From the NCBI RefSeq assembly GCF_014650335.1, contig NZ_BMUT01000022.1, forward strand, positions 1 through 64,000: a stretch of DNA of 64,000 nucleotides, read 5' to 3'. The stretch comes from Streptomyces hiroshimensis. Lineage in GTDB: Bacteria; Actinomycetota; Actinomycetes; Streptomycetales; Streptomycetaceae. The notes under the pieces were generated by a model. The model had not been told where the DNA came from. It searched no databases and saw nothing but the letters and a program-made list of their open reading frames with translations. Positions 4,184 through 28,077 of the stretch are shown here, in pieces (within the stretch, counting starts at the first letter, position 1; every line of letters begins with the position of its first letter). Made by a program: the position numbers and the translations under genes.

Positions 4184-4888
4184 ATGTCCAAGCGATTCAC
4201 AGGCAAAGTTGTCCTGGTCACCGGGGGCGGCGAGGGCATCGGCCGCGCTGCCGCCTTTGCGTTCGCCCGTGAGGGCGCCGAGGTCGTGGTCGCCGGCCGG
4301 CACCCGGAAATGCTGCACGACACCGTCGAGGAGATCAAGGCACTGGGCGGCAGCGCCAGTTGCGGAATCGCCGATGTGACCCACCACGGCGAGAACGGTG
4401 ACGCCTCCGACGCGGAGGCGATCGTGAGCGCCGTCGTCGAACGCCACGGCCGCCTCGACGTCGCCTTCAACAATGTCACCGAACTCGGCCCGAACCAGCC
4501 GGTGGCGGAGATCTGCGAAAGCGTCTGGGGCGAGACCCTGGCCGCCAATCTCACCGGCGTCTGGCTGTCCATGAAGCACGAGATCGCGCACATGGAGCGC
4601 AACGGCGGCGGCGTGATCGTGAATACGGCCAGCAATATCGGCAGCCAGGGCATGCTGCCCGGGCTCGGCGCGTACGCCGCGTCCAAGGCCGCGGTGAGCA
4701 CCCTCACCCAGACCGCCGCCCGTGAATACATCGGCAAGGGCATCCGGATCAATGCCATCAGCCCGTGCCCGCTGGGCCGCGGCGCCAAGGTGGAGGAGAT
4801 CGCCGACACCGTGCTGTGGCTCGCTTCCGACGAGGCGTCCTACGTCGTCGGCCACGACCTGGTCCTGGACCGCAAGACCGCCGTCTGA
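4184..4888 (+). CDS. Short-chain dehydrogenase with shortened substrate loop
   Basis: A 234-residue classical SDR, predicted to be an NAD(P)-dependent oxidoreductase. The cofactor motif is TGGGEGIG (13-20). NN at 96-97 replaces the start of NNAG, the catalytic Ser lies in NTASNIGS (Ser150 or Ser154), and Tyr164 and Lys168 form YxxxK. ATG at 4184 is chosen because AGGAG lies 8 bases upstream. The substrate-lid segment is odd: INAISP at 189-194 runs almost directly into the VEEIADTVLWLAS helix, omitting roughly 20-25 residues usually found there, and the C-terminus ends DLVLDRKTAV rather than the usual VDGG. It is followed at 76 bp by the FAD hydroxylase, probably one operon. Confidence 0.85.
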   Translation: MSKRFTGKVVLVTGGGEGIGRAAAFAFAREGAEVVVAGRHPEMLHDTVEEIKALGGSASCGIADVTHHGENGDASDAEAIVSAVVERHGRLDVAFNNVTELGPNQPVAEICESVWGETLAANLTGVWLSMKHEIAHMERNGGGVIVNTASNIGSQGMLPGLGAYAASKAAVSTLTQTAAREYIGKGIRINAISPCPLGRGAKVEEIADTVLWLASDEASYVVGHDLVLDRKTAV

Positions 4889-4964: not shown

Positions 4965-6143
4965 ATGGCCAACATCCTTATCGCCGGGGGCGGCATCGGC
5001 GGTCTCGCGGCCGCCGTGTCCGTGGCCCGCCAGGGTCACCGGGCGACCGTGCTGGAGCGCAGCGACGTCTTCGGCGAGGTCGGCGCCGGCATCCAGCTCG
5101 GCCCGAACGCCTTCCACGCCCTCGACGACCTCGGCGTGGGCACCGAGGTCCGCGCGCGGGCGGTGCTGATCGACGAGCTGCAGTTCATGGACGGCACGAC
5201 GGGCGAGCGCGTCGCCCGCATGCCGCTCACCGGCGCCTACCGCGAGCGCTTCGGCAACCCGTACGCCGTCGTGCACCGCGGCGACCTCTACCAGGCGCTC
5301 CTCGACGCCTGCCGCGCCCATCCCGCCGTGACCCTCCTCGGCGGCCATTACGTGGTGCGCTACGAGCAGGACGCGACCGGCGTCACCGCCGTCACCTGCA
5401 CCGGGCGCCCCTTCCGCGGCGACGTGCTGATCGGTGCCGACGGGATCCGCTCGGCCGTGCGCCGCCAGCTCATCGGGGACGGCGAACCGCGGGTGTCGGG
5501 ACACACCATCTACCGCTCGGTGATCCCCATGGAGCAGGTGCCGCAGGAGCTGCGCTGGAACAGCGTGACCCTGTGGGCCGGGCCCAAGTGGCACTTCGTG
5601 CACTACCCCATAGCGGGCGGCAAGTGCCTGAACCTGGCGGCCACCAGGGACGATGCGGCCACCGAGCCGGTGGCGGGGCTGCCGGTGCCGGCCGGGGACG
5701 TGATCGCCGAGTTCCCCGAGCTGGGCCACGCCGCGCGGCGGCTGCTGGAGCTCGGCACGGGCTGGCGGGCGTGGGTGCTGTGCGACCGCGACCCGGTGAC
5801 GGACTGGACGGACGGCCGGGTGACGCTCCTGGGCGACGCCGCGCACCCCATGCTGCAGTACGCAGCGCAGGGCGCGTGCATGGCGCTGGAGGACGCGGTG
5901 CTGCTCGGCGACCTGCTGCGGGGCGCGGAGTCGGGCGAGGCCTCCCTCGGGCGGCGGCTGGAGAAGTACAACGCGGCGCGGTGCGAGCGCACTTCGCGCA
6001 CCCAGCTGGTGGCCCGGGAGATGGGCAGGCAGCTGTACCACCCGGCGGGGGACGCGGCCCGCGCGCGCAACCGGATGCTCTGCTCCCTGACGACGGACGA
6101 GCTGTACGACAAGGTCGACTGGCTGCACGCGGGCGTGCGCTGA
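4965..6143 (+). CDS. FAD-dependent aromatic monooxygenase (3-hydroxybenzoate 6-hydroxylase-like)
   Basis: A 392-residue single-component class A flavin monooxygenase, expected to hydroxylate an aromatic ring with NAD(P)H and O2. The Rossmann GGGIGG is at residues 8-13, the DG motif (GADGIRS) at 158-163 and the GD motif (LLGDAAHPMLQYAAQGA) from 288. The GD region with HPMLQYAAQGA resembles 3-hydroxybenzoate 6-hydroxylases and salicylate hydroxylases. The real substrate may be a secondary metabolite, given the neighbouring SDR and bicovalent oxidase. No ring-cleavage dioxygenase or other aromatic catabolic gene is nearby, which argues against a simple gentisate pathway here. Confidence 0.85.
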   Translation: MANILIAGGGIGGLAAAVSVARQGHRATVLERSDVFGEVGAGIQLGPNAFHALDDLGVGTEVRARAVLIDELQFMDGTTGERVARMPLTGAYRERFGNPYAVVHRGDLYQALLDACRAHPAVTLLGGHYVVRYEQDATGVTAVTCTGRPFRGDVLIGADGIRSAVRRQLIGDGEPRVSGHTIYRSVIPMEQVPQELRWNSVTLWAGPKWHFVHYPIAGGKCLNLAATRDDAATEPVAGLPVPAGDVIAEFPELGHAARRLLELGTGWRAWVLCDRDPVTDWTDGRVTLLGDAAHPMLQYAAQGACMALEDAVLLGDLLRGAESGEASLGRRLEKYNAARCERTSRTQLVAREMGRQLYHPAGDAARARNRMLCSLTTDELYDKVDWLHAGVR

Positions 6144-7405: not shown

Positions 7406-7577
7406 GTCCTAAGCCTTTCGATCGTGTAGCGCCCCCACTGGGAAAGCGTTCTGAATAACTCCGGCCCTATACAGAGGTTCCGGGCTTTCACTCATTCGAG
7501 CCAGTGGGATCGCTGCAGGTAGGACTGCCCGACAAATGTAAATACGGCGCGCGGTCATACCGGTGACGCCGGTGATA

Positions 7578-7799
7578 TCAGCGGCCGAGCCGCCGATAGG
7601 TCAGGATGCTGGTCAGCGTGACATAGCGGTACTGGCCGCCCTGGACGGTGGTGAGAATTCCGCGGTCGATGAGCCGCTCGACGGTCCACGGGGTCAGGCC
7701 GAGCAGCCCGGCGGCGGTGCGCAGGGGCAGGCTCATGTCCTCGAAGATCTCGGGGAACGGGGGGCGCACGGCCGCGGCCGCCTCGGTGGGCGCGCTCAT
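7578..7799 (-). CDS. Small HTH DNA-binding protein, coupled to DsbA-like gene
   Basis: A 73-residue protein whose second half (SLPLRTAAGLLGLTPWTVERLIDRGILTTVQGGQYRYVTLTSI) reads as a MerR/excisionase-type winged helix: helix-turn-helix, then a two-strand wing. Its ATG shares one base with the upstream TGA stop (TGATG), so translation is probably coupled to the DsbA-like gene. It has no ligand-binding or integrase partner nearby, so a small transcription regulator is likelier than an excisionase. Confidence 0.65.
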   Translation of the reverse strand: MSAPTEAAAAVRPPFPEIFEDMSLPLRTAAGLLGLTPWTVERLIDRGILTTVQGGQYRYVTLTSILTYRRLGR

Positions 7800-8482
7800 C
7801 AGAAAGCGGCGTCGACGGGACGGCCGGCAGGACGCCCGACGGGACGCCCGGCAGGACGTACGGCCGCCACCATCGCCCCGTGCAGCGCCTGCTCGCTCTG
7901 CACACCCAGCAGAACGGCATCGTCGCCGATCTTGAACACCGGTGGTGCCGGGACTCCGTGGCGCCGCAGCCGGTGCAACTCCCCGCGCAGTTCCTCGGCT
8001 TCGTCCGACCCCTTCGCCAACGCGCCTGTCCCGCCCGGCCCGAGCTCCACCCCGCACTCCTCCGCGATCTCCCGCAGCACCGCCTCTCCGGCGATGTGCA
8101 GGCCGTCGGTGAAGTGCGCGCGGAAGAGCCGTTCGACCACGGGCTCGGCCAGGCCCTGCTCCGCGGCGCGGCCGATGAGCAGGTGGGCGCGGAAGCTGCC
8201 GGTGGCGATCGCCCGGTCGTAGCGCAGCTCCAGCCCGTCGCGCGCGGCCTGCCAGGTGAAGATCTCGGCCTGCGTCGCGGCGTACGGGCCGAGCATCCGT
8301 TCCAGTACGGGCATCAGGGGCTGCGGGCTGTCGGAGGCGGCCGGGGCGATCTCGTAGGGGCGGAAGGTGATCGCGACGTCGGTGCCGTGGGCGCGCATCC
8401 GGTCGGCGGCGCGGACCAGGCGCGTATAGCCGATGTAGGAGTGGACGCAGATCACGTCCAGGACCATGTCCGCCCTCACCAT
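7799..8482 (-). CDS. DsbA/FrnE-like thioredoxin-fold protein with CxxS site
   Basis: A 227-residue DsbA-family protein of the FrnE / 2-hydroxychromene-2-carboxylate isomerase group, judged by the YIGYTRLVRAADRM helix, the TFRPYEIAP strand, the central helical insertion and the C-terminal VPAPPVFKIGDDAVLLGVQS (cis-Pro strand). FrnE enzymes usually carry CPWC before YIG; here the site is CVHS (Cys12-Ser15), so a disulfide-forming pair is missing. A glutathione- or mycothiol-dependent isomerase/transferase or monothiol role is more likely than a disulfide oxidase. The tail repeats RPAGRPVGRPAGRPV. ATG at 8467 is a possible alternative start with a better ribosome site. It is divergent from a TetR regulator. 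Confidence 0.72.
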   Translation of the reverse strand: MVRADMVLDVICVHSYIGYTRLVRAADRMRAHGTDVAITFRPYEIAPAASDSPQPLMPVLERMLGPYAATQAEIFTWQAARDGLELRYDRAIATGSFRAHLLIGRAAEQGLAEPVVERLFRAHFTDGLHIAGEAVLREIAEECGVELGPGGTGALAKGSDEAEELRGELHRLRRHGVPAPPVFKIGDDAVLLGVQSEQALHGAMVAAVRPAGRPVGRPAGRPVDAAF

Positions 8483-19306: not shown

Positions 19307-20287
19307 CTAGGGCCGGGGAGGGAGGGTGCCCAGGGCAGCCCCGGCCAGTTCCTGGCGGGTCGCGAGCTCGGCCTTGACGGCGGCCAGTTCCTTCGCGTTC
19401 CGCTCGATCTCCTGCCGCTGGTACGCCGCGTCCACCGCGAACCAGACGCCCACCACGTTGTGCTCCTTCTTGCACTGCGCGTCGGCCGCCGCCGTCTCCC
19501 GCTCCTTCGCGGACGCCTCGGGCGTGCGCCAGGCCGGGTCGGCACCCGCCTTGAGCGGGTCCCCGTACGCCGGGAAGCCGCGCTGCTTCATGCAGGCCGC
19601 CCACTGGTCGAAGACGGCCACCACGCGCGGGTCCCGCTGCGACCGCTCGAAGCTCCCGGTGTTGATCCGGTCGGCGACCGGGGCGTCTCCCCCGGCCTCG
19701 GCGTTGTCCGCCCGGAGCGCGGACCGGGCTTCGCCTGTACAGCCGCCCGGGGGGACCGTACGCCCCTTGATGCGCTGGCCGCCCTTCGCGGCGGCGGTTC
19801 CGGGCTTGACCTTGGGGTCGTCCGTGCCGGTGAGGACGATGGTCGCCTCGGGAGTGAGGGAGGGCGGCGGAGGCGGCTTGGGCGGAGTCCGCGGGCTGCC
19901 AGGCGGGGCGAAGCCGTAGCGGGCGGCTTCGACCGGATCGGTGATGCCGTAGCGGTACTGCGTACGGGTCTTCGGCCGGAAGGGGGTTGCGGGGGCGGGT
20001 GGTTGATAAGTGACCTCGAAGCGGCGCATGCAGCGTTCTACGAGGGTGCGCCGGGCGGAATCGAGGCGGTCGGCCTGGTCATTGGTGAGGAGGTAAGGGT
20101 CGATGGGAAGGGAGTGGGAGGCGGCGGACGTCATCGCGGGAAAAGCACTGGGCTGGGGAACCTTGTCGCCGGAGGAGGACGACGAACACCCCGCGGCCGC
20201 GAGAAGAACGCCCGCGAGGGTGACAGTGAGAGCGCCCCGCCCGTGACGACGGGCGGGGCTCCCTGTACGCGAGGACAGCTCGGTCAA
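19307..20287 (-). CDS. Secreted lipoprotein, function unknown
   Basis: A protein of about 326 residues with a type II signal peptide (RRHGRGALTVTLAGVLLAAAGC, lipobox LAAAGC) followed by a Ser-rich linker. The mature part has a Pro-rich stretch (PPKPPPPPSL), paired Cys and a helical C-terminus (ERNAKELAAVKAELATRQELAG). No ATG or GTG precedes the signal peptide in frame. The most likely start is TTG at 20287, overlapping the upstream stop as TTGA. The hairpin at 20234-20259 then falls inside the first codons, which is odd for a terminator. Related lipoproteins of this type are common in Streptomyces but uncharacterised. Confidence 0.65.
   Translation of the reverse strand: MTELSSRTGSPARRHGRGALTVTLAGVLLAAAGCSSSSSGDKVPQPSAFPAMTSAASHSLPIDPYLLTNDQADRLDSARRTLVERCMRRFEVTYQPPAPATPFRPKTRTQYRYGITDPVEAARYGFAPPGSPRTPPKPPPPPSLTPEATIVLTGTDDPKVKPGTAAAKGGQRIKGRTVPPGGCTGEARSALRADNAEAGGDAPVADRINTGSFERSQRDPRVVAVFDQWAACMKQRGFPAYGDPLKAGADPAWRTPEASAKERETAAADAQCKKEHNVVGVWFAVDAAYQRQEIERNAKELAAVKAELATRQELAGAALGTLPPRP
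20234..20259 (-). terminator. Hairpin after the inhibitor gene, inside the lipoprotein start region
   Basis: GCCCCGCCCGT and ACGGGCGGGGC form an 11-bp perfect stem with a GACG loop. It begins 25 bp beyond the stop of the inhibitor-like gene. If it terminates, downstream lipoprotein expression would depend on read-through; it also overlaps the presumed lipoprotein signal-peptide codons. Confidence 0.6.
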
Positions 20288-20703
20288 CTGAACCGACCGG
20301 ACTCGTTGTTGTTCCGCAGGTGGTCGTTGAGGTTCGCGGCGCCGCCGGGCGCGATGCGCTGGTGCGCGCCCTGGTAGTTCGGCATCGAGTAGACCGTGAA
20401 GGCGCTGTTGAAGTCCCAGTTGTCGACCGACGCCGCATTGTTGCGCACGGTCGCGTTCGAGCCTTCGCTGCCCCGCGTCGAGCTGCTCGACACGAAGTTG
20501 TTGTCCCGGTAGTTCGCGTCGTTGCTGTACTGCTTGTAGATCGCACCCGTGTAGTTCTGGTAGTAGAACAGACACGCATAGCCGGTCGAGCAGCTCTGCG
20601 TGAAACTGTCCGTCGCCGCGGATGCCGGCGAGGTGGCCAGAAGACCCGAACCCGCGGTGGCGACGGCAATCGCCCCGGCCACGGCCAGACGCTTGAACCT
20701 CAT
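20284..20703 (-). CDS. Secreted peptidase-inhibitor-like protein (I36/SMPI type)
   Basis: A 139-residue secreted protein. The signal peptide (RFKRLAVAGAIAVATAGSGLLATSPASA) is followed by a mature part of about 108 residues rich in Asn, Ser, Tyr and Gly. It has the pattern SCSTGYACLFYYQNYTGA and later SMPNYQGAHQRIAPG, as in the small crystallin-like Streptomyces metalloproteinase-inhibitor family (I36). Two Cys could form a disulfide. The predicted role is inhibition of extracellular proteases. It is followed by the lipoprotein gene with a possible TTGA overlap. Confidence 0.75.
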   Translation of the reverse strand: MRFKRLAVAGAIAVATAGSGLLATSPASAATDSFTQSCSTGYACLFYYQNYTGAIYKQYSNDANYRDNNFVSSSSTRGSEGSNATVRNNAASVDNWDFNSAFTVYSMPNYQGAHQRIAPGGAANLNDHLRNNNESGRFS

Positions 20704-20799
20704 ACGAAAACCCTCCTGTTTCGCTCGTTTGCAGGAAGCGTTTCGGTTTCGGTCGCCATCCTGTCCGGCGGGCGTGACAAAAGACAGCGCCTTCGATCC

Positions 20800-21540
20800 T
20801 CATCGAAACTCGCAGCTCGAATTCACGAGCGCGGAACCCGTACGCGTACGGACGTGCAGCGCGCTCGTTCCGTTCGGGACGGTCCTGAGCAGGCCCGCGT
20901 CCCGCAGGGCCGACAGGTGATGGCTGACCGTCGGCGCGGAGACGCCTACGCGGCGGGCGAGCTCCCCGGACGTGCAGGCCGTCCCGGCGGCGATGAGGAT
21001 CCCGGCGCGCGTGGCGCCCATGAGCCGGGCCAGCGCCTTGTCGCCCGCGGGGTCGGATTGCGGCTGAGCCGCCGGGTGTACGAGGACGGGCGGTGCGGCC
21101 GGGTCCTCGGGCAGGTGCCCCACGCCGTGGCAGAAGTGCGACGGCTGGAGCAGCAGCCCCCGGCCGCGGAGGTCGCAGTCCCGGTCCACGGCGCTGCGGA
21201 CGTGCAGGGTCGGCGGCATCCACCGCATGGTGGGCACGTAGCTGCGGAGCAGCCCGTTGACCCCGCCGTCGAGGAGGGCCCGGATCCGCAGGGCGCGGTC
21301 GCCGTCGACGCTGGACCGGATGTCCTCCCAGTACGGGTCGATGGCGACCTCCCGGTACGCCTCGGGCGGCCGCGGGTGGGGCAGCTGCGCGAGGACGTCG
21401 CGGTGCCAGTCGCCGTAGCGCGGCGGCACGACGCGTCTTCGTAAGTGCCGCAGACTCAGCACCAGTTCCCACTGGGGGTCGGGGCCGGTCGCCACGCGCG
21501 TGTTGAGCAGATCTGTGTCGGTGAAGTGAATTCGCAGCAC
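20800..21540 (-). CDS. ArsR-like winged-helix transcription regulator
   Basis: A 246-residue protein with a C-terminal ArsR-type DNA-binding domain (ILIAAGTACTSGELARRVGVSAPTVSHHLSALRDAGLLRT, then the wing to the end). The N-terminal 150 residues form an unclassified domain with several Trp and Pro residues (DPYWEDIRSSVDGDRALR, LQPSHFCHGVGHLP). Actinomycetes carry many such regulators with this layout. No metal-binding CxC motif of classical ArsR is present, so a metal sensor is unlikely. The target is unknown. Confidence 0.85.
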   Translation of the reverse strand: MLRIHFTDTDLLNTRVATGPDPQWELVLSLRHLRRRVVPPRYGDWHRDVLAQLPHPRPPEAYREVAIDPYWEDIRSSVDGDRALRIRALLDGGVNGLLRSYVPTMRWMPPTLHVRSAVDRDCDLRGRGLLLQPSHFCHGVGHLPEDPAAPPVLVHPAAQPQSDPAGDKALARLMGATRAGILIAAGTACTSGELARRVGVSAPTVSHHLSALRDAGLLRTVPNGTSALHVRTRTGSALVNSSCEFR

Positions 21541-21572
21541 CGCGGCAGAGTGTCAAGGGAGCTGCGGGGGCA

Positions 21573-22529
21573 CTAGGCGAATTGTGGCTGAGGTGCATTT
21601 TGGCCGACTTCGGCAGGGCGGCGGCCTTGCCGGGTCATGGCGCGCAGCCGTGCGACGCGGGCGCGGACGTCAGCCGAGTCCGGGGCGTCCGGGGGCGGTT
21701 CGACGCCGCGGCAGGTGCGGCAGAGACCGCCGGGGAGCGCTTCGGGGCGGCCCGGGGTGCCGCAGTCGGTGCATTCCATGTCCCAGCGGGGTGTGGGCGC
21801 GGCCTGCGCCTCTGCATGCGGGGTGGGGAACGGCTCCGGAGGGAGCCGGTCGATGAGCCTCTTGCGAGTGAAAGCACCGGGGCAGTGGATGACGTCGGGG
21901 AGCCCGTTGCAGAGGATCCGCGCGAAGTCCTGTGGCGTGATGCCCCGCGCGAACCACTCGGCCGCGAGGGGTTCGAGGGCGGCGCAGTCGGCGGCGGAGA
22001 GGGTGAGGCGGGGGTCGGAGAGGCCGAGGGTGGCGAGGGCGATGTAGGCGGGGGAGGCCTCGGGGCGGGCGTGGTCTTGGTCCTGGTCTTGGGGCGCGGC
22101 GGCCGTCACGGTCGTCGCGGCCCTTGCAGGGACCGGCTTCGGCTTGCCGCCGGAGCCCTCCAGGAGGTCATCCAGGAAAGCCTTCCACCAGGCGTCGCTA
22201 CGCGCCGTGCGGGAGAAGAACCAGCGGGACACCCACTGGGTACGCCCCTCGCCGACGACGCGCCGGACGCGGCGCAGGTGGCCGGCCTCGGACAGGGCAT
22301 TGAGGGCGGAGGCGACGGCCTGCTGTCCGTAGGCGGCGAGCTCTTTGGCGAGGGTCTTGATGTCGACGGCGGCGCCGTCGGGAAGCCGGTCGATGTGAGC
22401 GGCGATGGAGGCTTCGCGGGCGGGCAGATGAGCGAAGTCGTCCCGGCCGCGCGGGGCTTGGCCGGGCGCGGAACGCTTGCCGTAGCCGGGCGCGGCCATG
22501 GGGGGAGCGGTAAGCTGAGCGGTAGCCAC
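21573..22529 (-). CDS. HTH protein with C-terminal zinc ribbon
   Basis: A 318-residue protein. Residues about 30-115 form a MarR-like winged helix (REASIAAHIDRLPDGAAVDIKTLAKELAAYGQQAVASALNALSEAGHLRRVRR). The middle is a helical region after a Gln/Asp-rich linker. Near the C-terminus CTDCG and CRTCRG make a four-cysteine zinc ribbon. GTG at 22529 is chosen; the internal ATG at 22499 has no ribosome site. Such proteins are common in Streptomyces accessory regions. The function is unknown, but a DNA-binding regulator is likely. Confidence 0.72.
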   Translation of the reverse strand: MATAQLTAPPMAAPGYGKRSAPGQAPRGRDDFAHLPAREASIAAHIDRLPDGAAVDIKTLAKELAAYGQQAVASALNALSEAGHLRRVRRVVGEGRTQWVSRWFFSRTARSDAWWKAFLDDLLEGSGGKPKPVPARAATTVTAAAPQDQDQDHARPEASPAYIALATLGLSDPRLTLSAADCAALEPLAAEWFARGITPQDFARILCNGLPDVIHCPGAFTRKRLIDRLPPEPFPTPHAEAQAAPTPRWDMECTDCGTPGRPEALPGGLCRTCRGVEPPPDAPDSADVRARVARLRAMTRQGRRPAEVGQNAPQPQFA

Positions 22530-22560
22530 CAGATCAACTTTCTCTTGATCTCGTCGGTCA

Positions 22561-22596
22561 GACCCCGGCTCGGTGCTCCAACACCGGCCCGGGGTC
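22561..22596. promoter_or_regulatory. Two-part hairpin upstream of HTH gene
   Basis: GACCCCGG (22561-22568) pairs with CCGGGGTC (22589-22596), and inside it CGGTG pairs with CACCG. On the minus strand it sits in the presumed leader of the HTH gene, 32 bp before its start; on the plus strand it is followed by GCTTTGTTGT. It could be a leader structure or a small terminator. Confidence 0.45.
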
Positions 22597-22799
22597 GCTT
22601 TGTTGTGGCGCACGCTACACGCCGAACGCGTGGCGTGGTGGCCCAGTTGCGGAAAGTCATATGGGTGTGGTTACGCGCGTGCTTGCGCGCGTCCGCGCGA
22701 GGCTTGGGTGGGAGGGTGGGGAGAAACCTCCCGCCCATTCCGTGTATGGATCGCTCGAATCCCGGCCCCCGAATCCCGAAGCTCGGCGTGGTGGGTGGG

Positions 22800-23744
22800 A
22801 TGTCAGAGGCTGCTGGCAGCATCACCGCCATGAACGTCACCCGTACCACCCCGCCGCGGCCGCTCGACGTCGCCGCGCTCTTCCCTGAACTGGGCCCGCT
22901 GGCACGCACGGCGATCCGGTTGCATCCCCGTCCCGGGTCTCCGTCGCCGCGCGACAGTTCGGTCGGCGGGCCGCTGCTGTGGCCCGCCGACGAGCCGTGG
23001 CCGTACTGCGACGAGGCGCACGGGTTGTACGACAGTTCGACCGACGAGGAGTACGAGGGGCCGAACCCCATGGTGCCCGTGGCCCAGCTGTACGTGCGCG
23101 ACGTACCCCTGCTGCGACCACCCGTTGGGGCCGATCTGCTCCAGGTGCTGTGGTGTCCCTGGGAGCACGAGCCGGATTACAAGCCGCCGACCGTGCTGGT
23201 CTGGCGATCCGCTGCCGAGGTCACCGACGTCCTCGCCGCGCCGCCCGAGTCGACCGAGGGGGAATACGAAGGCTACTTGCCGGTGCCGTGCATGCTCGCG
23301 CCGGAGCAGATCACCGAGTACCCCAACTACTTGGAGCTGAGCAAGGAGCTGCAGCAGCCGCTGAAGGACTGGAGCAGGTGGCAGGCAGCCGACGCCGGTG
23401 TGGACAGCTCCTACGCTCCCTACCCGGAGGCGTTCTACTCGAGCGCGCTGTCCGACGCCCCGGGCTGGAAGGTCGGCGGCTGGGCCCCGTGGGGCCTCAC
23501 CGATCCTGTCGCCCGGTTCTGCGCCGATTGCGGCGCCGGCATGGTCCCGCTGCTGACCATAGCCTCGGTCGAATGGGACAGCGGCAGCAAGAGTTGGGTC
23601 CCGTACGAGGATCGAGACCTCGCCGAGTCCGGCAATGGCGGCGCGTCGAGCCCGCCCAAGGTCCATATCTCCAGGACCAACAATCTGCAGCTCTACGTCT
23701 GCCCGGAGTCCCCGGACCATCCGCACACCGACCTGATCCAGTGA
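22800..23744 (+). CDS. DUF1963-like protein (YwqG family)
   Basis: A 314-residue cytoplasmic protein of the YwqG/DUF1963 type, judged by GGPLLWPADEPWPYC near the N-terminus, the VAQLYVRDVP and DLLQVLWCPWEHE segments and the WKVGGWAPWGLTDPVA motif, followed by a CADCG pair near residue 240. Two starts are possible: ATG 22800 (GGTGGG upstream) and ATG 22830 (no clear ribosome site, but closer to where homologues start). The function is unknown; the family occurs sporadically near polymorphic toxin immunity genes, but nothing here shows a toxin. Confidence 0.75.
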   Translation: MSEAAGSITAMNVTRTTPPRPLDVAALFPELGPLARTAIRLHPRPGSPSPRDSSVGGPLLWPADEPWPYCDEAHGLYDSSTDEEYEGPNPMVPVAQLYVRDVPLLRPPVGADLLQVLWCPWEHEPDYKPPTVLVWRSAAEVTDVLAAPPESTEGEYEGYLPVPCMLAPEQITEYPNYLELSKELQQPLKDWSRWQAADAGVDSSYAPYPEAFYSSALSDAPGWKVGGWAPWGLTDPVARFCADCGAGMVPLLTIASVEWDSGSKSWVPYEDRDLAESGNGGASSPPKVHISRTNNLQLYVCPESPDHPHTDLIQ

Positions 23745-23848
23745 GCCACCAGCCCAGGCGGGGACGGGGTGAACGGCGTCCGACGGCCCTGAGGGGGAAC
23801 CCCGAGCCTCGGGATTCGGGGCCCGGGGGTGGGCGCGGAGTGGTGTGG

Positions 23849-24592
23849 TTGGGATCCGTGGGTCGGGCGCGGGTCAGAACAGGCCGGCAGCAGGGGGGAG
23901 AGGTGGGGGGCTCGGGTCCGGCTCGTTGGCTGTGCGGTGGGTGGGTTGTTGGCCGCCGTACTCCTGCCGTCACGGATGCGGCTGCGTGAGGAGACCGGTC
24001 TGTCCGTCTGTGGCTGAGGGGGAGCTGGCAGCTGCCGCGATGTGGTGCCTGCCGTCGTGGGCGCTTCGCTCAGCTCGCCACCGTCGTGGCCGGGCAGCCG
24101 GGTGTCCCTGAGCGGGGGTTCCTGTGACAGAGAGCGCGTGGTGGGGCTGCAGGTGGCTTGCGGCCTGCAACTCGGCCCGCTTATCCGCCGCGGCGGGCGG
24201 CTAACTGTCCCCGAGTGGGCTCGTCTGTGACAGGGGCAGCTTCGTGGGGTCGTTGAGGTGCTCGGCCGTCATCCCGGGTCACTTATCCGCCGCCCTCCAC
24301 CCACGCCGGTTGATTACCGCGCCCAAGTGCATCCCGCAGCCGGACGAGCAACCACAACGGCGGGAAACCGAGCGAAGCGCCCACGACGGGCCCAGCCACA
24401 TCGCGGCAGCTGCCAGCTCCCCGCCAGCCCAGGTTTATGGGACCGGTCTCCTCACGCGCGTGCATCCGTGACGGCAGGAGTACGGCGCCCAACCGCCCAC
24501 CGGCCGCACACCTCACCCACCGAACCCGAGCCCCCCACCTGTCCCCCCGCTGCCAGCCTGTTCTCACCCGCACCCACCCCACGGATCCCAGC
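23849..24592. repeat. Long imperfect inverted repeat, arms about 260 bp
   Basis: The left arm is about 23849-24105 and the right arm about 24330-24592; the right arm read on the minus strand matches the left at roughly 75-80 percent by eye. Exact shared blocks include GCCGTACTCCTGCCGTCACG, GTGAGGAGACCGGTC and GTCGTGGGCGCTTCGCTC. The 224-bp spacer carries two CTGTGACAG motifs (24122, 24225) and two CTTATCCGCCG motifs. The whole 862-bp gap between the DUF1963-like gene and the DUF397 gene holds no convincing coding frame. Confidence 0.85.
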
Positions 24593-24606
24593 CCGGGTCG
24601 GCGCCT

Positions 24607-24909
24607 TTACGCCGCGGCGATGTAGGCGACAAACCCCGCCCAGGCGGGGGCGCCTACGGCGAGTTGGGGGCCAGCCTTCTCCTTGGAGTCGCGTATATGG
24701 ACGCCGCAGGAGCTGCTGGCTATCTCGACGCAGTTGTCACCTTCGTCGTCGCTGCGGCTGGACTTTCGCCACGGCAGTGCAACTTCGACACACTCGCTGC
24801 CATCCCCGTCGCTATAGCTGGACTTTTGCCACGGCAATGCCACTTCCACACAGTTGCTGCCATCGTCGTCGCTATAGCTGGACTTGAACCATGCCAGACC
24901 GTCATTCAC
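24607..24909 (-). CDS. DUF397 protein with triplicated core motif
   Basis: A 100-residue DUF397 protein. Members normally have one W.KSSYS..G..CVEVA unit, then VAVRDSKD and a C-terminal WAAFV helix. Here the first unit is present three times: AWFKSSYSDDDGSNCVEVA, PWQKSSYSDGDGSECVEVA and PWRKSSRSDDEGDNCVEIA, each 20 residues, followed by GVHIRDSKEKAGPQL and PAWAGFVAYI. The GTG start overlaps the XRE stop by four bases (GTGA), so the pair is coupled. In Streptomyces, XRE/DUF397 pairs influence development and antibiotic production and have been likened to toxin-antitoxin pairs. Confidence 0.9.
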   Translation of the reverse strand: MNDGLAWFKSSYSDDDGSNCVEVALPWQKSSYSDGDGSECVEVALPWRKSSRSDDEGDNCVEIASSSCGVHIRDSKEKAGPQLAVGAPAWAGFVAYIAAA

Positions 24910-25715
24910 AGCTCATCTACCAATCTCTGGATGAATTGTGCAGAGTCCTCGGCGTTGAGCGCCTCCATTCGGAACTTCGCATAGCGCTCCGTCATGACGT
25001 GCACCTCATCGCTGTCCGAAGTCAGGAGACTCATTTGCTGCCCCTCAGCCAGAGACATCCGCACGTGATCTTTGGTCTCCAGGATCACGAGCGACCCGCT
25101 CAACGCCGAGGAAACGACCTTGCTGAAAGGAAGTACCTGCAGGGCCACATTGCGCATACTCCCGGCCTCCAGCAGGTGGAGCAGCTGACGCTTGTGCACC
25201 GCCGCGCCCCCCATCGGAGAACGCAGCGCAGCCTCGTAGATCACGAAGCTGAACTCTGCGGAGGGCTTGCGAGTGAGGAGGTGCTTGCGTGCCATCCGCG
25301 CTGCGACCCGCTCAGCTACCGTCTCCTCATCCAAGGCCGGGCAGCGATCCCCGATCAGCGCCTGCGCGTACTCCTCGGTCTGCAGGAGCCCGGGCATCAG
25401 GGCACACTCGTACGACCAGATACTGAGCGCTTCGGCCTCGTGCCGGATGTAGTCGCGCGTTCGCGCGGGAAACTTCTCCCTCGTGAGATACCCGAGCCCC
25501 GCCTTCAATTTTCCCCGCGCCCCGAAGAGCTCATCCGCGATCTCCGCCATCCGCGGCGGGCACGCGCGCCGCCCCTGTTCCACGGACCTCACCATTTCCG
25601 CGGAATAGCCGACCGCTTCGGCGACTTCTTCCCGTGACAGCCCCGCCTCCTGGCGCCACATCATGAACTGGTTTCCGAGGTACCGATGGTTGACCGGAAG
25701 AAAAACCTCGCCCAT
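24906..25715 (-). CDS. XRE-family regulator with Scr1-like (DUF5753) domain
   Basis: A 269-residue regulator. HTH_31 spans about residues 10-70 (LGNQFMMWRQEAGLSREEVAEAVGYSAEMVRSVEQGRRA). The rest is the DUF5753/Scr1 domain: IWSYECALMPGLLQTEEYAQALI, VAARMARKHLLTRKP, LHLLEAGSMRNVALQVLPFS and the C-terminal YAKFRMEALNAEDSAQFIQRL. It is the partner of the DUF397 gene, which overlaps its stop. A CTGTCACAG motif lies 17 bp upstream of the start and recurs twice in the nearby inverted-repeat spacer. Confidence 0.92.
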   Translation of the reverse strand: MGEVFLPVNHRYLGNQFMMWRQEAGLSREEVAEAVGYSAEMVRSVEQGRRACPPRMAEIADELFGARGKLKAGLGYLTREKFPARTRDYIRHEAEALSIWSYECALMPGLLQTEEYAQALIGDRCPALDEETVAERVAARMARKHLLTRKPSAEFSFVIYEAALRSPMGGAAVHKRQLLHLLEAGSMRNVALQVLPFSKVVSSALSGSLVILETKDHVRMSLAEGQQMSLLTSDSDEVHVMTERYAKFRMEALNAEDSAQFIQRLVDEL

Positions 25716-25731
25716 GCCCGCAGACCCTCCC

Positions 25732-25740
25732 CTGTCACAG
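25732..25740. promoter_or_regulatory. CTGTCACAG motif at XRE promoter
   Basis: A 9-bp near-palindrome lies 17 bp before the XRE start. The same motif, CTGTGACAG, occurs at 24122-24130 and 24225-24233 in the spacer of the long inverted repeat. The clustering suggests an autoregulatory site for the XRE protein. Confidence 0.4.
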
Positions 25741-25832
25741 ATGGCATACCCTCTGGCCAGAGATTCCGCACATCACGGCCCGTATCCATCCCGTAACACG
25801 TCACGCTACGCCCCCGTGGGCATCTATACGCC

Positions 25833-26105
25833 GTGAGTAATGAAAATCCCCCCCGAACCCCGCGGACTCCCCGAACCCCGCGGAGCGTCTACCGCTTCGG
25901 TACCTGGACACTGACCCCTGACCGCGAGCCCGACGCCGAGCCCGTCACGTACGCGATGCAGTGCGCCGTCTGCGAGGAGCGCTCCGCCCCGGGCGAGGAC
26001 CCGGCCGCCGCCCAGGCCTGGACCTTCCGGCATGCCGGGCGGAACCCCTCCCACCACACCTACCGGGAGGTGATCACCCGGCCCTGGCGCACCTGGATGG
26101 CCTGA
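25833..26105 (+). CDS. Small CxxC protein, function unknown
   Basis: A 90-residue protein, with a PRTPRTPRTPR repeat at the N-terminus followed by VYRFGTWTLTPDREPDAEPVTYAMQCAVCEERSAPGEDP and HAGRNPSHHTYREV. One CxxC pair and two or three His could bind zinc. Similar small proteins are frequent in Streptomyces near XRE/DUF397 loci, as I recall, without known function. There is no ribosome site before the GTG. CTATAC ends four bases upstream of it, so the mRNA may be leaderless. Confidence 0.7.
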   Translation: MSNENPPRTPRTPRTPRSVYRFGTWTLTPDREPDAEPVTYAMQCAVCEERSAPGEDPAAAQAWTFRHAGRNPSHHTYREVITRPWRTWMA

Positions 26106-26195
26106 GATGGCCGGAAGAAACGGCGCGCGGTCAGCCCCGGTCGCTCGGATACGCTAAAGGCCTCCATATACACCCGCGACCAGGGAGCAGCCGAA

Positions 26196-27917
26196 ATGGC
26201 TCGACACCTCATCACCAGCGCCCTTCCGTATATCAACGGGATCAAGCACCTGGGCAACATGGTGGGGTCCATGCTCCCGGCGGACGTGTACGCCCGGTAC
26301 CTCCGCCAGACCGGTCGCGAGACGCTGTTCATCTGTGCCACCGACGAGCACGGGACCCCGGCCGAGCTGGGCGCCAAGGAGCTCGGCCTGCCCGTGGACG
26401 AGTTCTGCGCCAAGCAGCACGACGCGCAGAAGGCGATCTACGACGGCTTCGCGCTGTCCTTCGACTACTTCGGCCGCAGCTCCTCCCCGCAGAACCGCGA
26501 GATCACCCAGCACTTCGCGCGGCAGCTGCAGCAGAACGGGTTCATCGAGGAGCGCTCGATCCGCCAGGTCTACTCCCTGGCGGACGGCCGCTTCCTGCCC
26601 GACCGCTACATCGTCGGCACCTGCCCGCACTGCGGCTACGACAAGGCCCGTGGCGACCAGTGCGAGAACTGCACGCGCGTCCTGGACCCGACGGACCTGA
26701 TCGACGCCCGCTCGGCGATCAGCGGCAGCAGCGACCTGGAGGTCCGCGAGACCAAGCACCTCTTCCTCCTCCAGTCGAAGCTGCAGGGCGAGGTCGAGGC
26801 GTGGATCGACGAGCACGGCAAGGACTGGCCGGTCCTGGCGTCCTCGATCGCCCGCAAGTGGCTGACCGAGGGGCTGAACGACCGCGCGATCACGCGTGAC
26901 CTGGACTGGGGCGTGCCGGTCCCGGCGGACACGTGGCCGGAGCTGGCGGCCGAGGGCAAGGTCTTCTACGTCTGGTTCGACGCCCCGATCGAGTACATCG
27001 GCGCGACGAAGGAGTGGGCTGACCAGGACCCGGAGAACCGGGACTGGAAGTCCTGGTGGTACGAGGCGACGGACGTCCGCTACACCCAGTTCATGGGCAA
27101 GGACAACGTCCCGTTCCACACGGTGATGTTCCCGGCCACCCAGCTCGGCGTCCGCGAGCCGTGGAAGAAGGTCGACTACGTCAAGGCCTTCAACTGGCTG
27201 AACTACTACGGCGGCAAGTTCTCCACGTCCCAGAAGCGCGGCGTCTTCACGCACGACGCCCTGGAGCTGCTGCCCGCCGACTACTGGCGCTACTTCATGA
27301 TGGCCAACGCCCCCGAGTCGGACGACACGTCGTTCACGTGGGAGCTGTTCTCGGCCACGGTGAACAAGGACCTCGCCGACGTCCTCGGCAACTTCGTCAA
27401 CCGCGTGCTGTCGTTCTCGAAGAAGCGCTTCGGCGAGACGGTCCCGGCCGGCGCCGAGGCGGGCGAGGCCGAGACGAACCTGGGCCGCGAGATCGCCCAG
27501 CTGCTCCAGGAGTACGAGGAGCACATGGAGGCCATGCAGTACCGCAAGGCCGCCCAGGCCCTGCGTGCACTGTGGAGCGCGGGCAACTCGTACCTGGAGA
27601 CCAAGGCCCCCTGGCTGGAGATCAAGACCGACCCGGAGGCCGCGGCGCTGACGCTGCGCACGGCGATGAACCTGATCCACCTGTACTCGGTGATCTCGGA
27701 GCCGTTCATCCCGCAGTCGGCGTCGGCCATGCGCCTGGCGTTCGAGCTCGCCGACGACACGCGGACGTGGGTCACGGCGGACGAGGCCCGCTCGCTGTCC
27801 TTCGTCCCGGCCGGTACGCCGTTCAGCGTCCCGCCGGTGCTCTTCGCGAAGATCACCGAGGATGATCTGGCCGCCTACCGCGAGCGCTTCGGCGGCGGCG
27901 AGGAGCCGGCGGCCTAG
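26196..27917 (+). CDS. metG: Methionyl-tRNA synthetase
   Basis: A 573-residue class I aminoacyl-tRNA synthetase that charges tRNA-Met. The HIGH motif is KHLGN near residue 15, the KMSKS equivalent is KFSTSQK near 341, and a zinc knuckle, [17 protein letters not shown], lies around residues 144-160. The anticodon-binding helical domain follows. The C-terminal tRNA-binding appendix of longer MetRS is absent, normal for this subtype. GGAGCAGCC lies before the ATG. It is followed by a strong terminator. Confidence 0.97.
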
Positions 27918-27947
27918 TCACCCCGCAGACCGCACAGCAAGCAGCCG

Positions 27948-27980
27948 AGGGCCCGGAACCGAGGAGGTTCCGGGCCCTCC
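27948..27980 (+). terminator. metG terminator
   Basis: GAGGGCCCGGAACC pairs with GGTTCCGGGCCCTC over 14 bp with a 5-nt loop, 31 bp after the metG stop; flanking AGCAG/CTGCT extends the stem imperfectly. Confidence 0.88.
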
Positions 27981-28077
27981 GTGCTGCCTGTTGATGGAAC
28001 GGTAATCGTCCGTTGAGACCGGCGGACCAGGCTGGAGGCCACACCGTACGGGGAAGCCGGGGAGACGAGGAAGAGCA

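Follow-up and report, generated by a model that had tools for sequence, protein, structure and literature searches.

The window analysed here, a stretch of 64,000 nucleotides from Streptomyces hiroshimensis (contig NZ_BMUT01000022.1), contains a long inverted repeat beside an XRE–DUF397 gene pair, with a methionyl-tRNA synthetase and an AspRS-type synthetase as further neighbours. What is this repeat, and what is it doing behind a chromosomal operon? An earlier note had suggested the remnant of a duplicated promoter or leader of an XRE–DUF397 locus, or a large hairpin transcript. Single-strand origins are familiar components of plasmids and integrative elements. The account that we prefer, with a confidence a little better than even, is that of a dispersed noncoding element whose inverted arms are of the sti-type single-strand origin (sso) family, which forms a putative two-way origin of second-strand synthesis and which has spread by recombination.

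The inverted arms and the single-strand origins of plasmids

Placed in inverted orientation, 23847–24089 and 24352–24593 align with 81.4% identity over 247 columns (BLASTN, E 3e-61), and a global alignment of both arms has 209 identities in 249 aligned pairs (84%). The ungapped blocks of the arms are complementary at 84%, 77% and 86%. The arm-to-arm local score of 148.5 lies far above the maximum of 38.5 found in 500 dinucleotide shuffles. The long inverted repeat is thus real, with an identity of 81–84%; the coordinates first given for it hold to within a few bases, and the identity first given was slightly too low. The best outer borders are 23847 and 24593, and the inner borders extend from 24089/24352 for the strong match to 24117/24317 for the weak one (Table 1). 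The two frames that cover arms are without a Pfam match, and no transposase is recognised among the ten nearest window proteins and frames scanned with Pfam.

The motif CTGTGACAG, to which the earlier note had drawn attention, does occur three times in the window, at 24122 and 24225, both in the spacer, and at 25732 on the minus strand. Shuffled sequences hold 0.38 copies on average, and three copies were reached in 2 of 100. Since the two spacer copies are spaced by about 102 bp, which is also the period of the degenerate direct repeat in the spacer, they are not independent of each other. As an operator common to the spacer and the XRE promoter, the motif found no support over eight modules: 9-mers common to a spacer and the region upstream of its own XRE gene are no more numerous than those in common with the upstream regions of other modules (1787 of 5000 permutations reach the observed value), and of the eight modules compared only that of the window contains CTGTGACAG. 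At one locus of 'Streptosporangium' nondiastaticum (C133a; L109 6393–6896 and 5380–5700), a 9-mer repeated in the spacer recurs upstream of the XRE gene, as CTGTGACAG does in the window. A scan of 23700–25900 gave no promoter site (0.3 in shuffles) and one terminator site (0.7 in shuffles). There are no tRNA genes within the window, and hence no tRNA attachment site there, and phage records gave no match to the element.

Among plasmid records, an 861-base region of the window has matches in 63, of which 61 are filed as Streptomyces; in none of the 63 is 80% of the region found in one place, and no gene underlies the match among the matches listed, for which the gene table is incomplete. The match to pSN22 has 72.4% identity over a quarter of the query (E 1e-17). 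Used in turn as query, the pSN22 piece finds pIJ101 7441–7659 (77%, E 3e-33), pJV1, pSVH1 and others, 67 records altogether, and an element arm from Streptomyces klenkii matches pIJ101 over 106 columns at 74.5% (E 6e-11 in a small local set). A 135-aa ORF on the minus strand of pIJ101 (7970–8377 of the record) has the match some 310 bp downstream of it. For pIJ101, pSN22 and pJV1 we follow PMC4170104, PMC9761944 and PMC11985553: SpdA2 has 135 aa and the sso, which is sti, lies downstream of spdA2 (PMC4170104), and sti is 0.2 kb long (PMC9761944). The position and length of the match fit this description, and because it lies downstream of the 135-aa ORF, as in PMC4170104, we take pIJ101 7441–7659 to be the mapped sti. 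Judged by these matches, each window arm is homologous to the sti-type sso (minus origin) of the Streptomyces rolling-circle plasmids pSN22, pIJ101, pJV1 and pSVH1, the link from window arm to pIJ101 running through pSN22 and the identity of sti in pIJ101 being taken from gene position. Single copies of related sequence are found elsewhere in the genus: at E 0.001 the window query matches 30 of 101 genomes, with five candidates scored for each. A plasmid filed as Pseudomonas sp. SK2 (NZ_CP061946.1) carries a pIJ101-type sso with the same score as pIJ101; it is possibly a vector or a misfiled record.

The cores of 34 sequences were aligned, comprising the two window arms, 13 other element arms, the klenkii copy C7, eight plasmid copies and ten single copies of other genomes; the cores besides the window arms represent 32 of the 49 listed. 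The block GGGGAGC..GCWGCTGCCGCGATG is nearly invariant across all 34 and is present in both window arms. Column conservation in the 15 element arms follows that in a reference set of 18 sso from plasmids and other genomes, with a Spearman coefficient of 0.53 (152 columns; none of 142 circular shifts reaches this value). There are 33 reference-invariant columns, of which 30 are invariant in the element arms and 32 are kept by each window arm, and 56 of the remaining 119 columns are invariant in the element arms. A strict core pattern is kept in 23 of 27 arms, C7 included.

Three helices in the core have 93.1% of their cells paired, against 27.7–59.5% when slid, and show 8 double changes, where shuffles give 2.3 and none of 500 gives as many; these helices were chosen after reading the same alignment on which they were tested. 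There is no excess of pairs with a change on both sides (313 of 500 shuffles as high) or of further pair types (424 of 500). RNAalifold alone gives 11 pairs and no double changes. The DNA folding energy of a single arm is no better than that of shuffles for both window arms and pIJ101, and the pSN22 sso has a z of −2.1. We regard the support for the helices from this alignment as modest.

Table 1. Features assigned to the inverted repeat and its surroundings (positions in the window)
Feature	Position	Strand	Evidence
Left arm, homologue of sti-type sso; strongly matched as far as 24089	23847..24117	+	aligns in inverted orientation with the right arm; homologous to plasmid records, pSN22 among them
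Right arm, sti-type sso homologue; strong match 24352–24593	24317..24593	-	inverted match; alignment
Left-arm sso core	23942..24095	+	34-sequence alignment; 32/33 reference-invariant positions kept
Right-arm sso core	24345..24499	-	34-sequence alignment; 32/33 reference-invariant positions kept
Conserved sso motif GGGGAGC..GCWGCTGCCGCGATG with small conserved hairpin, left arm	24019..24042	+	
Conserved sso motif, right arm	24399..24422	-	
Two nested helices, left sso core: 23961–23964/23990–23993 (columns 23–26/53–56) and 23970–23974/23985–23989 (columns 32–36/48–52)	23961..23993	+	covariation, partial support
Outer-end motif GGGTNARRACAGGCYGGCAGC, left arm	23871..23891	+	exact motif search
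Outer-end motif, right arm	24549..24569	-	exact motif search
Spacer, degenerate two-unit direct repeat	24118..24316	.	units 24161–24191 and 24263–24293, 102 bp apart
DUF397 protein, 100 aa, second operon gene; stop codon faces right arm	24607..24909	-	Pfam PF04149; genome search
XRE-family regulator (HTH_31 and DUF5753), first operon gene	24906..25715	-	Pfam
Accessory gene beyond the far side of the element, without Pfam family	22800..23744	+	missing from the same locus in three related genomes

In pSN22, pIJ101, pJV1, pSVH1 and pSNA1, a GntR-family gene lies no more than 0.7 kb from the match, with another gene between the two in pIJ101 and pSVH1, and in most plasmid stretches looked at the sso is a single copy. 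Two plasmids (L073 and L074) have two sso-like copies each, about 4.2 kb apart and direct, not inverted, within the stretches fetched. AICE-like settings were annotated for the sso of genome G064 (FtsK-like, GntR and RepSA) and for klenkii C7, a single sso within about 6 kb of GntR, FtsK-like and RepSA genes (RepSA at C7:31131–32393). At the window locus the setting of a sti-type sso, an ssDNA-making replicon with rep, spd or GntR neighbours, was not found, and integrase, RepSA and FtsK-like genes are absent among the 20 window proteins and frames (of about 60) scanned with Pfam. By sequence the arms belong to the sti-type sso family; the window locus lacks that family's setting. They share with the sso of pIJ101, pSN22, pJV1 and pSVH1 a noncoding sequence of about 200 bp with a conserved core and helices. 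Unlike these, the window element is doubled, inverted and chromosomal, carries some 60 bp more at the outer end and a spacer of tandem repeats, and sits behind an XRE–DUF397 operon instead of near a GntR gene and spdA or rep. With the AICE-like (pSAM2-type) copies it has the core and the chromosomal location in common, whereas the two annotated copies stand alone near FtsK-like, GntR and RepSA genes, C7 moreover falling outside the group of element arms.

It is possible, if less probable to our minds, that inverted sso pairs are leftovers of recombined rolling-circle plasmids or AICEs, multiplied by recombination and without a present role. RepSA, the one family searched for, has no match in the window genome or in nondiastaticum, as would suit such leftovers; the sso conservation pattern retained by the element arms speaks against them.

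A dispersed element docked behind XRE–DUF397 operons

The window genome holds further copies, for which the earlier note had suggested a search: 15 of its 18 matches to the query lie at nine other places. With a klenkii arm as query, matches number 9 in the window genome, 15 in S. klenkii, 10 in S. roseoverticillatus and 15 in nondiastaticum. Inverted pairs in which both arms exceed 200 bp were found 11 times, once in the window genome, three times in S. klenkii and seven times in nondiastaticum, where 14 of the 15 arm matches belong to the seven pairs. No pair above 200 bp was seen in S. roseoverticillatus, but three of its longest matches are at the end of a contig or close to it. The window genome (C8) has one short, collapsed pair and klenkii (C3) has two, and several copies have decayed to 40–70 bp. 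Truncation of this kind would be expected of leftovers, while the recurrence of inverted pairing at 11 loci and the inner tails or repeats common to the element copies aligned speak against them.

At E 1e-15 the klenkii arm matches at least 33 of 392 genomes of the genus, two candidates per genome being scored. The outer-end motif GGGTNARRACAGGCYGGCAGC has exact matches in 3 of the 392 and is missing from the plasmid sso copies in the arm–plasmid alignment. A slightly wider outer-end pattern, searched in 84,980 named genomes (a set that may omit the window genome's own records), hits 22 stretches. Of these, klenkii, roseoverticillatus and nondiastaticum account for 13, and we take the remaining nine, scattered over other bacteria, for chance.

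The spacers of 7 of the 11 pairs were searched for direct repeats, which have periods of 102–184 bp, mostly about 121 bp. Two or more units of good likeness are present in six of these seven spacers, and the likeness is weak in the window, the spacer of which we read as the counterpart of the tandem repeats in other copies. One spacer, that of L107 in nondiastaticum, was searched more widely; it has no match in plasmids and matches 11 of 61 genomes at E 0.001, the strong matches (<1e-7) being in klenkii only. A full alignment of the window pair with the three klenkii pairs shows one of them to match over the whole length at 71%. The inverted repeat of the window represents a single copy of a small, dispersed noncoding element composed of an sso arm, a tandem-repeat spacer (degenerate here) and an inverted sso arm. 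The genus name of the nondiastaticum record (NZ_PXWG01; L101, L097, L106, L107 and L109) is probably wrong, as its methionyl-tRNA synthetase DNA is 96% identical to that of the window and it is syntenic with Streptomyces.

Grouping of matches within 1500 bp gives 32 loci in the four genomes (window, klenkii, nondiastaticum and roseoverticillatus). At 11 of these the nearest element border lies 3–34 bp behind the Pfam DUF397 match, from the end of which the distance is measured; one locus is at 82 bp. At three more loci (window genome C8, klenkii C2 and nondiastaticum C33) the border comes to about 20 bp or less from a small ORF that follows an XRE gene; the ORF of klenkii C2 is unrecognised as DUF397 by Pfam. 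Docking is therefore seen at 14 of 32 loci, always at 35 bp or less and with the outer end toward the gene. With some 100 DUF397 genes in 31 Mb, our arithmetic puts chance docking far below one locus of 32. The position next to DUF397 is thus no accident, and its excess over chance also weighs against mere leftovers. The remaining 18 loci are farther than 35 bp from a DUF397 match or lookalike. They include the AICE copy (klenkii C7) and three loci of one layout, with an arm 711–729 bp upstream of an XRE gene (klenkii C19, nondiastaticum C133a and roseoverticillatus C26). The idea of a duplicated promoter or leader finds no support, since the arms are homologous to plasmid sso and are sited behind the operon, not in front of it.

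XRE–DUF397 gene pairs have been proposed as toxin–antitoxin systems (PMC10364602 and PMC4239341). PADLOC, run on five window proteins, gave no match for the XRE or the DUF397 protein. The window DUF397 gene has three 60-bp direct repeats at 24725–24904 (75 and 68% identity), an internally multiplied N-terminal part. At L063 two related ORFs of 63 and 69 aa (4616–4807 and 5786–5995; 77% in part) resemble DUF397 partners and have no Pfam match; one lies behind an XRE/DUF5753 gene and the other beyond the sso pair.

Could the element act as RNA? Read-through from the XRE–DUF397 operon would then yield a long hairpin, by which the transcript is terminated or stabilised, or which RNase III cuts. 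We consider this improbable. The right arm does begin, at 24593, only 13 bp behind the stop codon of the DUF397 reading frame, and the 747-nt RNA of the window element folds with −575 kcal/mol (z −25 against 20 shuffles), so that the hairpin transcript of the earlier note is physically possible. Bidirectional 3′ ends are described in S. clavuligerus for 10 of 24 XRE–DUF397 pairs (PMC8269248), and the outer end alone survives in five decayed docked copies (window genome C2 and C6:374660; roseoverticillatus C11:238537, C18:113536 and C37). Likeness between the arms of one element is, however, not maintained: it is 0.790 for the seven nondiastaticum pairs against 0.798 for random pairing (as good in 3665 of 5000) and 0.809 against 0.811 for the three klenkii pairs (2683 of 5000). 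Arms of the same element being no more alike than others, it is each single arm, as an sso, that is conserved and not the hairpin as a pair. The conserved core is moreover that of the plasmid sso, single in most plasmid stretches looked at; a docked arm behind DUF397 in nondiastaticum (L107 3360–3595) is without a partner arm of its own; the 18 undocked loci are not beside a DUF397 match; and none of the six listed Rfam matches to 20000–28000 reached the gathering score.

Descent and probable exchange between copies

At the locus corresponding to that of the window, the pair is present in nondiastaticum. In S. roseoverticillatus some 60 bp of arm and part of a repeat are kept there, along with SDR and LysR genes, and klenkii has no element and a RimK-type ATP-grasp gene. 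Such truncation and absence are again in keeping with leftovers. The window locus itself has an extra gene (22800–23744), which belongs to no Pfam or PADLOC family and is flanked by a 29-bp inverted repeat (90%) at 22761–22789 and 23799–23827. In nondiastaticum similar halves of this repeat stand close together without the gene, as if the accessory gene had been inserted into the loop of a terminator-like hairpin. Part of this gene matches nine Streptomyces plasmid records, eight of them at 80–90%. At 20800–21540 there are weak CARF/Csa3-like PADLOC matches, and Pfam reads this region as an ArsR-type HTH.

Two nondiastaticum copies, C99 (the orthologue of the window copy) and C133b, agree in long identical blocks and also in the final 43 bp of the DUF397 gene of C99. 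C133b carries a 12-bp insertion relative to C99, and directly in front of its DUF397 tail there is no DUF397 or XRE match. Arms at orthologous loci are the best match in one of eight comparisons and are above the mean of the alternatives in five; three of the eight involve klenkii C19 and nondiastaticum C133a, the orthology of which is supported by about 170 bp of left flank and one further weak match. From the five of eight, we infer that a trace of vertical descent remains. In the arm tree the element arms form one group (98/98) with klenkii C7 outside, and 21 of 32 inner branches are left open. The shared blocks and the tree seem to reflect exchange of sequence between copies, to which independent insertion may be the alternative.

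Insertion might be the work of an unknown transposase preferring the ends of DUF397 genes, the element then being a non-autonomous transposon (MITE or foldback), which we think most improbable. The traits of such elements are present: copies are several and dispersed, with long terminal inverted repeats, internal tandem repeats and no coding capacity (coding checked on two window frames), and C133b is a copy at a new site that carries the DUF397 tail of another locus. Against this, target duplication at the borders is not above chance in any of the 11 pairs (the borders are fuzzy and set by hand, and short duplications could escape), a finding that would equally suit leftovers, and no empty site with a duplication was found in the loci compared. 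The stretch common to C99 and C133b starts inside a gene and not at a fixed end, and the outer ends vary. The BrickBuilt MITE of Porphyromonas gingivalis, as described in PMC4596501, is likewise dispersed and intergenic, with inverted-repeat ends and an internal tandem array, but has small ends and 23-bp repeats, in contrast to the origin-related arms of about 250 bp and the repeats of about 121 bp found here.

A working model

For paired sso arms, two origins for second-strand synthesis, one per strand, would be the simplest working model. An sso works in one orientation, and an inverted pair would therefore offer one usable origin to whichever strand is exposed. The orientation dependence is in line with the behaviour of pIJ101, in which cop is reported to act on sti only in its natural orientation (PMC9761944). 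We propose that the arms could still start the synthesis of a complementary strand on single-stranded DNA, needing nothing but host factors, and that the inverted cassette would help its carrier DNA to become double-stranded after rolling-circle replication or uptake. Copies would spread and exchange sequence by recombination between homologous arms, without a transposase, and this recombination may at times take along the tail of a neighbouring DUF397 gene. A comparable idea is the DSO-qacC-SSO model for Staphylococcus plasmids (PMC5037232), in which an sso aids the spread of a neighbouring gene without a transposase; that model is a plasmid one with a double-strand origin, whereas here the sso is doubled and inverted.

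Why such an origin should be kept on the chromosome with XRE–DUF397 modules is a matter for tentative suggestions, of which we think neither likely. A module exposed on either strand might be made double-stranded at once, so that it could be carried along by rolling-circle plasmids or AICEs and become established through arm recombination; or the arms might compete with incoming plasmids for the host factors of the sso, a chromosomal form of 'strong incompatibility'. A paired, repeat-bearing, DUF397-docked chromosomal sso was not met in searches of an open-access library. Inverted sso pairs that are dispersed over the chromosome and docked at XRE–DUF397 operons suggest a use of these origins outside plasmid replication, and they may bear on the spread of the abundant, fast-evolving XRE–DUF397 pairs in Streptomyces.
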